A program made the position numbers and the translations under genes. Positions 23,053 to 53,225 of a stretch of 64,000 bases of DNA are shown here, piece by piece. Below the pieces are notes generated by a model that did not search any database, was not told the DNA's origin, and saw nothing but the letters and a program-made list of their open reading frames with translations. How positions within the stretch are numbered: the stretch's first letter is position 1; each line of letters opens with the position of its first letter. This DNA comes from Methanomassiliicoccales archaeon PtaU1.Bin124 (GTDB lineage: Archaea > Thermoplasmatota > Thermoplasmata > Methanomassiliicoccales > UBA472). The stretch covers positions 62,001 through 126,000 of the forward strand of contig MVRC01000015.1 in assembly GCA_002067865.1 (NCBI GenBank). Reading direction: 5' to 3'.

Positions 23053-23511
23053 TTATTTTCCGATGGGTAATTTCTTACGTTTTCTGTTACTCTTATCAAA
23101 TTTTTTCAAGTACACCTTCTTGTTCCGCTCTTCGAACGTTATTCTGAATTCATCGAAAAAACCCTCACGCCCAAGCAGTGGCGGGGTTGTAGAATTTTCA
23201 ATCAATAGTACTTTAACAGGAACGGTCATTGAATAATGTTCATGACCTTTACCAATTGAGATCGTTACCTTCGATCTGACCGTCTCTATCTCTCCTCCAA
23301 CCCCAATGGCCTTCTCTCTCGGCCCAGAGAGGTCCATGTTCAGCGTTTCTGCGATCTCCTTTGTGAATGCTGTGAAATCTGCCCCTGAGTCCAACAGACC
23401 AATAATTTCAAACGCCTCACCATTATTACTCAAAGTAACCGGTATCATTGGGCGCTTCATTAAAAAATGCCCTGGAATCTTTACTTCCTTATAGTGATAT
23501 GTCAGGGACAT
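23053..23511 (-). CDS. Retropepsin-like (clan AA) aspartic protease
   Basis: A 152-aa protein. A beta-rich N-terminus leads to LLDSGADFTAF at about 39-50, the retropepsin active-site DSG motif (Asp41), followed by a glycine-rich strand pair (IGVGGEIETVR) and LLGREGFF. Single-domain proteins of this type act as dimers. The C-terminus is very basic. It lies four bases downstream of the DUF5678 gene and on the same strand as the ubiquitin-like locus, 330 bases beyond the JAMM gene. Eukaryotic Ddi1 also joins a retropepsin fold to ubiquitin biology, so a link is tempting but unproven. Confidence 0.75.
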   Translation of the reverse strand: MSLTYHYKEVKIPGHFLMKRPMIPVTLSNNGEAFEIIGLLDSGADFTAFTKEIAETLNMDLSGPREKAIGVGGEIETVRSKVTISIGKGHEHYSMTVPVKVLLIENSTTPPLLGREGFFDEFRITFEERNKKVYLKKFDKSNRKRKKLPIGK

Positions 23512-23515
23512 TCTA

Positions 23516-23710
23516 TCACAGGATCATTGTAACATCCTTTGGTACCAGAGCAATGAAGGGCTTTGAATGTCCACAGACCTTCTTTGCTTCGGCGTATGCC
23601 TCCTTAAATGAGTGAGAGTGCCCTACTACTTTCTTATCGCAGATGGCTATCCATTGTCCAATGTATGGACTAACATCCATCTGCATGAAATAATCATAGC
23701 TTTCACTCAT
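23516..23710 (-). CDS. DUF5678-type small protein
   Basis: About 64 aa from the ATG at 23710. In-frame ATGs and a GTG just upstream also serve, with a GGTGATG ribosome site. The sequence YIGQWIAICDKKVVGHSHSFKEAYAEAKK matches the short DUF5678 domain common in archaea, of unknown role. It looks like a small beta-alpha protein. Coupled to the retropepsin-like gene, it may be its partner or regulator. Confidence 0.65.
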   Translation of the reverse strand: MSESYDYFMQMDVSPYIGQWIAICDKKVVGHSHSFKEAYAEAKKVCGHSKPFIALVPKDVTMIL

Positions 23711-23842
23711 CATCATCACCGTTGATGGTTTTAGCCCTCCGAGGTATAAATATTTTTTATAATTATTTACTACAATGAAAATATATTCGAAGAATTAGAA
23801 ATCTGTGCTTTAGGTTGTGAAAGATGGTAACATTTTTTATTC

Positions 23843-24475
23843 CTATCGTTTTTTTCTGATTTTGACGCTCTCACCATAATACGGATTCTGGTACTGATCC
23901 CAATAAACGGCGAAAGGCCGTTCGGCAACTCTTCCATCCTTCAGGTAGAATGTCGCGATCTCGGAATTGACCGGATCGATGACGAGCGCGATGTGGAAGG
24001 GTTGATTGAACATACGCACCTGGGTATCGATATCCGTCTCCGAAAGGAAACATCTGTGTCCAGGATGGGAATGGTACCAGCCCACGACAACATAATGGAA
24101 GCAGCTGTCCTCCAGCTCCTGGAATAGCTTCTCCCATCCATCGCGTTCGAACTTCACGCTGACAGAGGACGCATCCAGATCGGTCGTGGCCACGTCCCTG
24201 ATAAGGACGAATTTCCGCCCATCTTCTTCATAGACCGACCCCAGCAACAGTCCCATAACTTCGAGGCGTTCGTTCAGTTTGGAAAGTGCATGGTTGCGGA
24301 TCCTCTCTTCAGCCAGTTTGCTGAGGAAAAGGTCGATCGAACCATTACTGCGATCGAACAACTGCCTTGATTCGGTCGTAAGCCACTTATGTGGGAGAGT
24401 TCGATCCTCAGGCGGCCTGGGCCTCACCTCGATCTTCATCTCTGCAGATGAGGTGATGACAGGTCTCTTTCTCAT
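23843..24475 (-). CDS. JAMM/MPN+ metalloprotease (Rpn11-like deubiquitinase) of the ubiquitin-like system
   Basis: A 210-aa protein. Glu72 in LEVMGLLLG and H125-S-H127-P-G ... S135-E-T-D138 form the complete JAMM motif (HxHx7SxxD). VVVGWYHSHPG and the following LSETDIDTQ are strikingly like eukaryotic Rpn11. Expected roles: trimming residues after the Gly-Gly of the ubiquitin-like protein, and removing it from targets. An AAGGTG site precedes its ATG, which overlaps the E2 stop by four bases. The first 30 residues look extended and basic. Confidence 0.92.
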   Translation of the reverse strand: MRKRPVITSSAEMKIEVRPRPPEDRTLPHKWLTTESRQLFDRSNGSIDLFLSKLAEERIRNHALSKLNERLEVMGLLLGSVYEEDGRKFVLIRDVATTDLDASSVSVKFERDGWEKLFQELEDSCFHYVVVGWYHSHPGHRCFLSETDIDTQVRMFNQPFHIALVIDPVNSEIATFYLKDGRVAERPFAVYWDQYQNPYYGESVKIRKKR

Positions 24476-24975
24476 CGGTGCACCTTCGGCTTGACCACCT
24501 TAGCGACAGGCGCAACCTTGTTACCCTGGGCATTGAAGTACTGGGCCGCTCTGGTGCAAGAGTCTGTTCCGAAAGGGCTGGTGCCGTTCGGTTCGATCAA
24601 AAGAGATTCGATCCCTTTGATGAAGCTCAGAAGGTTGGAATTGAAGTTCCAGTCGCTCAACAGGCGGGTGCAAAGATGCCCGCCATCCTCCGGTCCCATG
24701 ATATTGGGATGGAATATCTGGGTCTGCCAGATGATGAGGGGTTTCTCAAACGGATATTCCTTGCTTATGATCATCCGGAAGCGATGGTTGTACCTGTAAA
24801 CGATCTTGCTCCCCTCCATGACCGGGCCAGGGACCTGGAGCAAGGTCACGTCAAGATTGATCGGAAAGTTCGCCAGACCCTCGTCTGAGATGTCTAACTG
24901 CACCTTCAGGCTGCGCCGGCAGGCAGCGATCTCATTTTGCAGCCTAGAACGAAGTAGTTCTTCTGGTAAGCTCAT
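24472..24975 (-). CDS. E2 ubiquitin-conjugating-enzyme-like protein
   Basis: A 167-aa UBC fold. The strand-loop motif YPFEKPLIIW is followed by HPN (89-91), Cys102 in GGHLCTRLLSDW, and then LLSFIKGIESLLIEPNGTSPF, matching E2 order including the Trp after the catalytic Cys and the PN...P segment. It should accept the ubiquitin-like protein from the E1 by thioester. A C-terminal Lys/Val/Pro tail of about 20 residues extends the fold. It overlaps Ubl and JAMM genes by four bases on each side. No RING-type E3 is visible nearby. Confidence 0.92.
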   Translation of the reverse strand: MSLPEELLRSRLQNEIAACRRSLKVQLDISDEGLANFPINLDVTLLQVPGPVMEGSKIVYRYNHRFRMIISKEYPFEKPLIIWQTQIFHPNIMGPEDGGHLCTRLLSDWNFNSNLLSFIKGIESLLIEPNGTSPFGTDSCTRAAQYFNAQGNKVAPVAKVVKPKVHR

Positions 24976-25208
24976 GCCCCGCCCTCGGGGTCAGGGATGA
25001 GCTCCAGTTCGTCGGCATCAATTATACCGACCTCAGCGACGCTTTGCTGGCCACGGAGGAGCTTCTTTCCCTTTCTCAGAACATATGCGCCCTCGTCCTT
25101 GTTCCAGTACGAGCTGGCGCCTTCTATGATCTCCTGGACGGTGTGCTCTCCTTCCAGTTCCATGTCCACTGTTCCGCCTGTCTCTGAGTTACGAATCCTG
25201 ACATTCAT
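24972..25208 (-). CDS. Ubiquitin-like modifier ending Gly-Gly-Ala
   Basis: A 78-aa beta-grasp protein. The pattern VDMELEGEHTVQEIIEGA, then YVLRKGKKLLRGQQSVAEVGI and DELELIP, follows ubiquitin strand by strand (lysine-rich beta3/4, then the hydrophobic patch region). It ends PEGGA, so the conjugation-competent Gly77 is masked by one residue, expected to be removed by the linked JAMM protease. It is first in a three-gene overlapping unit Ubl-E2-JAMM. An ATG with weak ribosome site follows a GTTTAAAC TATA. Confidence 0.88.
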   Translation of the reverse strand: MNVRIRNSETGGTVDMELEGEHTVQEIIEGASSYWNKDEGAYVLRKGKKLLRGQQSVAEVGIIDADELELIPDPEGGA

Positions 25209-25240
25209 GAACTTCCCATCTAAGGAGACTTGGTGGAAGG

Positions 25241-25248
25241 GTTTAAAC
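25241..25248 (-). promoter_or_regulatory. TATA box for the Ubl-E2-JAMM unit
   Basis: GTTTAAAC, reading leftward, lies about 35 bases before the Ubl ATG (25208). This predicts initiation near 25220 and a leader of about 10 bases. It sits in the only real gap of the locus (25209-25299, between Ubl and E1), so Ubl-E2-JAMM may be transcribed separately from E1, or additionally. Confidence 0.5.
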
Positions 25249-25299
25249 GGTTTCGGCTAGAGTTAGCCTTTTGATAACAAGGATGTAACAAAACTCAGC

Positions 25300-26094
25300 T
25301 CAAGCCAGATGGTTTGGGCAATTCGGGTCGATGCTAAGCTCATAGGACTCGGAAGTACCCTGCAGGCCGTTGTAGAAATGGACATGCCTGATGCACTCCT
25401 CATCCCTTCCCGATAACAACTTCAGCCCCTCCCTGACCTGGAGCGCGGCGATAACGCTCGTGGTCGTGATCTCCGCCGCCATCTTCCGTTCATGGTACAC
25501 TACATCTGCCCCAGTGCAGCTGAACCGCTTCTGCATGACCTTGTAATGGCTTTGGTTCATGGCGCATTGCAGGCATGGCGTTCGTGGCGGAACGACCACC
25601 TGCACCTTACCAGAGAAGCCATCGGTCCCGCCATCGACATATGGTACCTTGGCGAAGTACGATTGAGCGTTCAGATGAAGACGGGCCGCGATGTTGTCCA
25701 GGCACCCAAAGACCACGTCAAATTCGGACATGGCCTTCCAGTCCATATCCTGTACCTTTCCGTTCACCGGTATGATCCTGGCCGCCGGCTCCAACTCCAT
25801 GGCACGCTTGGCCACGATGTCCGCCTTCATCCTTCTCTCGTCCGCATCCTCTTCCCTGAAGAACACGCACCTGTTGAGGTTGGACCGAACCACATGGTCC
25901 ATGTCCACAAGAGTGATGTTCTTGCATCCCGAGAGCACCAGGTCCTTCACGACCTCGTTGCCCAATGCCCCGGCACCTACGATGAGAACGTTCGACGCCT
26001 CGATGGCCGGTACGTTCAACCAGACGATGCGGCGCGACCGGTCCATCCGGTCCTCGTCCATCTGGTCCGGGGTGATCCTCTCCTGCTGCGACAT
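25300..26094 (-). CDS. E1-like (ThiF/UBA-type) activating enzyme
   Basis: 264 aa from the ATG at 26094 (GGTGAT ribosome site, also an in-frame TTG at 26100). GAGALG (about 40-45) binds the adenylate, and LVDMDHVVRSNLNRC contains the catalytic Asp and the Asn-x-x-Arg of E1s. CLDNIAAR is the conserved loop. Cys193 in KRFSCTG is the likely thioester Cys. Zinc ligands are Cys174/Cys177 with Cys259/His262 (CxxC...CxxH). It should activate the neighbouring ubiquitin-like protein. A MoeB/ThiF-like role is possible, but the E2 and JAMM context favours conjugation. Confidence 0.9.
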   Translation of the reverse strand: MSQQERITPDQMDEDRMDRSRRIVWLNVPAIEASNVLIVGAGALGNEVVKDLVLSGCKNITLVDMDHVVRSNLNRCVFFREEDADERRMKADIVAKRAMELEPAARIIPVNGKVQDMDWKAMSEFDVVFGCLDNIAARLHLNAQSYFAKVPYVDGGTDGFSGKVQVVVPPRTPCLQCAMNQSHYKVMQKRFSCTGADVVYHERKMAAEITTTSVIAALQVREGLKLLSGRDEECIRHVHFYNGLQGTSESYELSIDPNCPNHLA

Positions 26095-26100
26095 GGGCAA

Positions 26101-52323: not shown

Positions 52324-53106
52324 TTAGCCGTAGAGGAAGCTTTGGTCCGCCGGTTGCTTCTTCGGCTGCTTCATGGTCTGCATGGCGGCCTTCATGCCCT
52401 GCTCGATCTGTTCCGCCTCCTTCAGCAACGGTTCCGGGTCCAGCTTCAGCTCGGGAAGCATGCGTCCGATGATCTCCAGCAGGTTCGCCGCCCCCCTCGC
52501 GTCCGGGATGTCGGCCTTGGCCGGCCCCAGCAGACAAACGACGTCCAGCCCCATCCGCTCCCCCTCGGACAGTAGGATCGCGGACATGCCGGACACCATG
52601 CCGTCGGCCATCATGCCAATCTTGTACTTCATGATGATCTCCCTGGCCTTGTCGGTCGTCCCGACGGAGAGCGTGGAGGAGTTCTCCTCCTCGCCTACGT
52701 TCATGCCTTCCAGGGTGATTATGGAATGGACCCCCTTGTGCTTCGCCCAGTCCAGCATGAGATCGGCCATGGGCATGAGCAGCTCCGGTCTGGGCATGAA
52801 CTCGGCCAGTATAACGACGATCTGTTGACACGACTCTCCCGGCCCGCCCTCGCACGCCCTCTTCCCCGCGAAGATCCTCACTGGATGGGAGGGAAGTCCG
52901 TCCTGAACGATGGTATAGGGCGGAAAGTCCGGAGACACTATGGCCGCTATCCGATCCAGCTTCATGGTGCGGACGATGTAGTTGGCCGCGATGGAAGAGA
53001 TCAGCCCCACGCTTGGAAATCCGACCACTAAGATGCAATCGGTCAAATGCACGTCCTTGTACTCATGCAGATAGATGCCGTCATAATCCCCTGAACGAGC
53101 GTTCAT
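52324..53106 (-). CDS. PAC2-family proteasome assembly chaperone-like protein with HbYX-like tail
   Basis: A 260-aa PAC2 protein. LTDCILVVGFPSVGLISSIAANYIV opens the family, and GMNVGEEENSSTLSVGTTDKA and LSEGERMGLDVVCLLGPAKADIPDARGAANLLEII continue it. The final residues are F-L-Y-G, a hydrophobic-Tyr-X motif like those with which PAC2 chaperones and ATPase rings dock on 20S proteasomes. A TATA (GTATATAATG, 53138-53147) is about 32-41 bases before the ATG at 53106. Probably proteasome-associated. Confidence 0.88.
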   Translation of the reverse strand: MNARSGDYDGIYLHEYKDVHLTDCILVVGFPSVGLISSIAANYIVRTMKLDRIAAIVSPDFPPYTIVQDGLPSHPVRIFAGKRACEGGPGESCQQIVVILAEFMPRPELLMPMADLMLDWAKHKGVHSIITLEGMNVGEEENSSTLSVGTTDKAREIIMKYKIGMMADGMVSGMSAILLSEGERMGLDVVCLLGPAKADIPDARGAANLLEIIGRMLPELKLDPEPLLKEAEQIEQGMKAAMQTMKQPKKQPADQSFLYG

Positions 53107-53225
53107 ATCGTCCCCGGAAGAAAATACTGACCGAACCGTATATAATGTCGAGGGTGACGTGGTCGTTTCTTCCTCCTAGAGCACTGGTGGAAGATTGAAA
53201 TAATCCACGGGGCGATTCGCCCAGC

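Follow-up and report, generated by a model that had tools for sequence, protein, structure and literature searches.

A probable ubiquitin-like conjugation system inherited vertically in Thermoplasmatota, with a candidate RING E3 encoded beside psmA

The window, a 64,000-nucleotide stretch of contig MVRC01000015.1 from Methanomassiliicoccales archaeon PtaU1.Bin124, carries on its minus strand an operon that encodes, in order, an E1-like activating enzyme, a ubiquitin-like modifier (Ubl), an E2-like conjugating enzyme and a JAMM metalloprotease (Table 1). An initial annotation had described a complete E1-Ubl-E2-JAMM locus in a probable methanogen of Thermoplasmatota; all four genes lie where it placed them, and the coordinates bear out the four-base overlaps that it read at the Ubl/E2 and E2/JAMM junctions, with a gap of 91 bp between E1 and Ubl. 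The E1, E2 and JAMM products match the Pfam families ThiF (1.5e-50), UQ_con (8.8e-13) and JAB (1.1e-13), respectively, and the Ubl gives a sub-threshold match to YukD alone. These genes probably make up a dedicated system for ubiquitin-like conjugation that Thermoplasmatota inherit vertically, together with a probable RING E3 that is encoded outside the window next to the proteasome gene psmA.

Table 1. Position and main characteristics of the operon genes and of the psmA-linked RING gene.
Feature	Position	Strand	Characteristics
E1-like Ubl-activating enzyme	25300..26100	minus	266 amino acids (aa) from TTG start; inner ATG at 26094; ThiF
Ubiquitin-like modifier (Ubl)	24972..25208	minus	78 aa; C-terminus PDPEGG-A; AlphaFold fold
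E2-like Ubl-conjugating enzyme	24472..24975	minus	167 aa; HPN 89-91, catalytic Cys102, Trp109; UQ_con
Rpn11-like JAMM/MPN+ metalloprotease	23843..24475	minus	210 aa; E72, H135xH137...S145xxD148; JAB
RING + zinc-ribbon protein	G000 C15:279517-280236 (L188:7515-8237)	minus	outside window, ~217 kb from window start

The E1 consists of a single ThiF-type adenylation domain (residues 32-262 in Pfam), and its 266 aa leave no room for a separate Cys domain and a C-terminal UBL/UFD domain, both of which are absent. In an alignment of 33 homologues R21, N74, R77, K92, D135 and C195 are invariant, as are the zinc ligands C176, C179, C261 and H264, which make up the CxxC...CxxH pattern recognised in the initial annotation. 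Cys195, sited in a short loop, is the candidate thioester cysteine suggested by the sequence; it is the residue proposed earlier for this role as Cys193, the difference arising because the protein is numbered here from the TTG start and not from the ATG at 26094. Relationships of the E1 and the JAMM to Caldiarchaeum and other reference proteins were judged by profile scores. Searched alone against PDB sequences, the window E1 matched Uba2 (1.1e-27), Uba1 (5e-25), Uba3 (3e-24), MoeB (6e-21) and ThiF (1e-17), and the E1 profile matched Uba1 (8.6e-45) and MoeB (4.5e-34), so that a MoeB/ThiF-only reading of the protein was rejected as the best fit. To judge from these scores it is a short, MoeB-sized enzyme that leans towards canonical E1s; the combination of a MoeB/ThiF-only E1 with a non-catalytic UBC fold, considered at the outset as a reason to abandon the assignment, was not what was found, the E1 being nearer to Uba2, Uba1 and Uba3 and the E2 keeping its cysteine.

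The ThiF fold of the E1, and the ThiF and MoeB models that rank highest for it among NCBIfam single-sequence matches (all far below their cut-offs), also accommodate a sulfur-carrier or dual SAMP/Urm1-like system, in which the E1 would form a persulfide for tRNA thiolation or cofactor synthesis and the E2-like protein would be accessory. Such a role appears very unlikely, given that the equivalog model of the SAMP E1 UbaA scores 76 bits against a cut-off of 450 and that the window genome has, at the threshold used, one other ThiF-family protein (C18:25507), so that the operon E1 looks dedicated.

The 78-aa product had been taken for a beta-grasp, ubiquitin-like protein, in agreement with its AlphaFold model (predicted local distance difference test score, pLDDT, 92.5), which matches ubiquitin structures with template modelling (TM) scores of 0.86-0.88 and Caldiarchaeum ubiquitin (6fnn_C) with a TM score of 0.88 and a root-mean-square deviation of 0.9 Å; NEDD8 and SUMO structures match too. 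The window Ubl has the di-glycine and C-terminal tail of a ubiquitin-fold modifier: P72-D-P-E-G-G77 is invariant in 34 aligned homologues and is followed by a tail of 0-9 residues with no conserved sequence, which in the window Ubl is a single residue (A). For the E2 model (pLDDT 86) the best 50 structure matches are UBC E2s, and R11, H89, P90, N91, C102 and W109 are invariant in 35 homologues, among them the HPN motif, Cys102 and downstream Trp by which the protein had first been identified.

The HxHx7SxxD motif noted earlier in the JAMM is part of an active site (E72, H135, H137, S145 and D148) kept in 31 of 32 aligned homologues, the exception (L058) belonging to genus g9. The best PDB matches of the JAMM profile are yeast Rpn11 (3.7e-28), Caldiarchaeum Rpn11 (2.7e-24) and CSN5 (7.6e-21), with BRCC36 and AMSH next, and the desampylase model matches the window protein weakly (29.9, cut-off 130). 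In all three operon-bearing genomes of genus g9 the JAMM is without HxH and SxxD while E1, Ubl and E2 are kept; the Ubls of the same three genomes end exactly at GG and therefore need no trimming by the protease. Ubls ending at GG occur also beside active JAMMs, so trimming is not the sole job of the JAMM. The enzyme would very probably act as maturase/deconjugase of the system. In three relatives (L083:8420-11041, L089:5259-7856 and L084:8095-9981) the JAMM is fused to long coiled-coil regions in proteins of 629-874 aa, of which those of L083 and L089 also carry a zinc ribbon; the E1 gene lies downstream of the JAMM gene in all three, instead of upstream of Ubl, and the Ubl reading frame of L084 also reaches far upstream.

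With four genes present and their catalytic residues intact, a conjugation cascade can be predicted with high confidence. The E1, presumably as a homodimer, would adenylate the C-terminal glycine of the Ubl and load the modifier on Cys195, from which it would pass to Cys102 of the E2 and on to lysine residues in proteins of the cell; any residues that follow PDPEGG would be trimmed by the JAMM, which would also remove the Ubl from substrates.

UQ_con (E2) was detected in 22/22 genomes of Methanomassiliicoccaceae, the family of the window, and in 98 of 300 genomes of the class, nearly always as a single copy, with more relatives elsewhere in the phylum. A scan of GTDB genomes yielded 260 relatives; the 80 that were kept bear labels such as Methanomassiliicoccales, Thermoplasmata, Thermoplasmatota or 'Euryarchaeota archaeon', and one just 'archaeon'. 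Most of 40 fetched regions show E1-Ubl-E2-JAMM in the order of the window, and since over 30 genomes, spread across many families, repeat these four genes in the same order, the arrangement is far beyond chance. A synteny search of related genomes, as the initial annotation had proposed, recovered not only the conserved operon but also conserved housekeeping neighbours, namely SIS, TrpRS, PheRS alpha, L18e and L13 genes. The conjugation system, probably inherited vertically, is a housekeeping unit of the whole family rather than a sporadic one.

This distribution bears on the option of a role in defence, which the initial annotation had left standing. The four functions are also brought together in Bil-type operons, and generic PADLOC models (E1-E2, JAB and BilC/BilD) match weakly; both would suit a conjugation system directed at viral proteins, like bacterial Bil or type II CBASS in antiphage defence. 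Such a function is nevertheless most improbable and is disfavoured because the system is core and syntenic, present throughout the family and in most members of the order, and because no relatives were confirmed in IMG/VR with the patterns used. Furthermore, the E2 and Ubl match no PADLOC model, no specific Bil assignment was obtained, and in the PDB sequence search the E1 is far closer to Uba2 (1e-27) and Uba1 than to bacterial BubCD (4e-7); an identity as Bil or CBASS was accordingly rejected.

In the E2-less or degenerate genomes that were tested, operon-type E1 (∼400 bits) and JAMM are absent, and only E1 matches at the level of MoeB (∼80-118 bits) remain. The E2 retains its Cys, HPN and Trp wherever E1 and JAMM persist, and in genomes that lost these two the Cys has gone as well, a correspondence that also argues against the sulfur-carrier alternative and its accessory E2. 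Neither operon-type E1 nor JAMM was found in any of eight genomes of family f11 that were searched, and two genomes of this family viewed in sequence (L071:7911-8594 and L088:7951-8631) encode a Ubl-E2 fusion that has no di-Gly end and no catalytic Cys and may be a UEV-like reader that outlasted the cascade. In one genome of genus g9 (G154) nothing but remnants of E1 and JAMM is left. E1-Ubl-E2-JAMM is gained and lost as one unit.

No RING E3 was seen in the Ubl operon itself, and the initial annotation had recorded no visible E3; that statement needs amending in view of a candidate gene outside the window that co-occurs with the operon and whose product carries zinc ribbons after a RING-like domain. 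The gene belongs to the cluster RING-ftsZ-pop5-psmA-SBDS, which in family f2 is RING-pop5-psmA-SBDS, and was met in a RING-domain search as weak matches ∼0.7-2.2 kb from the proteasome alpha gene in 5/5 operon genomes. Orthologues at E<1e-15 were present, in a sample of the order, in 40 of 42 E2-positive and 1 of 23 E2-negative genomes, and the two that this threshold missed (G039 and G074) carry the gene at the psmA locus, which brings the totals to 42/42 and 1/23 (Fisher 1.9e-16, a value overstated since the genomes are related). By synteny alone, the RING gene is at psmA in all 22 operon genomes of the order that were examined and in 0/9 informative operon-less genomes, G279 being the one exception; G226 is uninformative, as its contig ends. 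No RING was found at psmA in operon-less genomes of f14, f18, f22 and f27, nor in f11, and it is present there in members of f13, f8 and f19; in G185 the RING-bearing psmA cluster is ∼5 kb from the Ubl operon. Genus g9 and family f3 each hold both operon/RING states, so that joint loss occurred more than once. All five genes are co-inherited.

The domain of the fifth product is of RING type. Among PDB entries, a RING-only profile built from 25 orthologues matched RNF165, Arkadia, RNF24, RNF4 and AMFR best (from 3.9e-7), with PHD fingers behind; the ligands C9, C12, C25, H32, C35, C42 and C45 are invariant in these orthologues and C27 is nearly so, and the protein displays the cross-brace zinc-ligand pattern with C-x-[ILMV]-C and C-P-x-C. 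Two orthologues pass the Pfam cut-offs for zf-RING_2 or zf-C3HC4. It is reasonably likely that the psmA-linked protein is the E3, or a direct partner, of the cascade.

Several observations weigh against this proposal and, in part, against the system as a whole. The window genome's own RING copy scores below the Pfam cut-off; loop 7 of the E2 has WNFNS or WSFNS in place of the canonical SPA motif that eukaryotic RINGs use; and the RING gene sits in a translation/proteasome cluster, where it could be for another reason. The RING occurs in the absence of operon-type E1 and E2 in G279, and likewise in G081 and G142, the latter two being incomplete metagenome-assembled genomes, and conversely a good-quality E2-positive genome outside the order (G046, of f23) has the operon and no RING at psmA. 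Lineages that lost the system still have the proteasome, and the system is therefore not essential in all hosts. The location of the RING gene outside the Ubl operon, the missing SPA and the state of G046 would all be explained if the conjugation system were real but the RING-zinc-ribbon protein unrelated to it, with E3-independent transfer and a non-proteolytic role of the conjugates. This alternative is considered rather unlikely, in view of the co-presence and co-loss within the order, the opposite states in g9 and f3, and the RING E3s that head the PDB matches.

If the protein encoded upstream of pop5-psmA-SBDS is instead the likely E3 of the cascade, some of the cascade's output, at least, would be directed to the proteasome, the 20S genes of which are present. 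Such coupling is suggested by the position of the RING gene and its co-loss with the operon; that proteasomal turnover is a main output has about an even chance. Similarly balanced is the broader proposal that Thermoplasmatota, including methanogens, inherit an old five-part ubiquitin-proteasome-like pathway with genetic coupling between RING ligase and proteasome. A PAC2 family protein (4.7e-39) with a proteasome-docking tail, reported in the initial annotation, is present in the window (52324-53175, minus strand) and ends in FLYG, which is HbYX-like.

Discussions of archaeal ubiquitylation of the eukaryotic kind usually centre on Aigarchaeota and Asgard archaea. Systems of the Caldiarchaeum type are known and have been reconstituted, and the operon of Candidatus Caldiarchaeum subterraneum comprises CsUb, E1, E2, the srfp RING and CsRpn11 (PMC5654768, PMC6043591). 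The window operon resembles this system in having clustered genes for a ubiquitin fold with di-Gly and C-terminal propeptide, an E1, a UBC E2 and an Rpn11-like JAMM, and CsUb ranks with the structures nearest to the Ubl model, as does CsRpn11 with the nearest JAMMs. The window operon differs in its short E1, which is without the inserted Cys domain and the C-terminal UBL domain that are reported for Caldiarchaeum, in the candidate RING being located in the psmA cluster instead of the operon, and in belonging to a different archaeal phylum, one with methanogens. The bacterial BilABCD operons likewise unite Ubl, E2, JAMM and E1 functions, although the window sequences are not Bil-like, the E2 has a canonical HPN and the genes form a syntenic part of the core genome instead of being mobile. 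Haloarchaeal SAMP/UbaA/JAMM1 also provides archaeal Ubl conjugation with a JAMM desampylase but needs no E2, a constant member of the gene set described here.

The gene content also fits a JAMM-3 group and 'operons with Ub-, E1-, and E2-homologs' without E3 that are described by Fuchs et al. (2018; PMC6043591) and may include these very sequences; neither Thermoplasmatota nor a RING partner for such operons appears in the main text. Among Euryarchaeota, Grau-Bove et al. found UCH and RING genes in one marine genome alone (PMC4327156). No report of the operon in Thermoplasmatota/Methanomassiliicoccales or of the psmA-linked RING was found in the literature searched, although the supplements of PMC5654768 (Cluster III) and PMC6043591 might hold one. 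The new element is the strong E3 candidate, the protein with RING and zinc ribbons that is encoded beside psmA, outside the window.

Arguments on how the ubiquitin system arose draw on its distribution, which a core system across Thermoplasmatota changes; should the five-part pathway prove true, the system would also be an old one in a lineage that is neither Asgard nor TACK. A RING co-lost with the operon and encoded beside psmA makes testable the question of whether ubiquitin-like tagging fed the archaeal proteasome before eukaryotes. Cultured methanogens exist in this archaeal group and allow direct tests, and ready-made natural controls are at hand in the dead JAMM with its pre-matured Ubl and in the Ubl-E2 fusion that is without its Cys in genomes lacking the E1.

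Two genomes, G036 and G047 (L076, L079 and L080), hold a second set that is closer to the eukaryotic type, with an E1 of more than 400 aa, an E2 (UQ_con up to 1.3e-23) and an Rpn11-like JAMM with a zinc ribbon; in G047, which also has a window-type E1, a RING-bearing open reading frame of 699 aa adjoins the E2 of this set. In the window itself, a DUF5678 protein (23516-23719, minus strand) and a retroviral-type aspartyl protease (Asp_protease_2, 1.2e-6; 23053-23511, minus strand) are encoded directly downstream of the JAMM. A Ddi1-like association was considered for this pair and dropped, and the two genes were left out of the interpretation, because they form no conserved cluster beside the operon in relatives.

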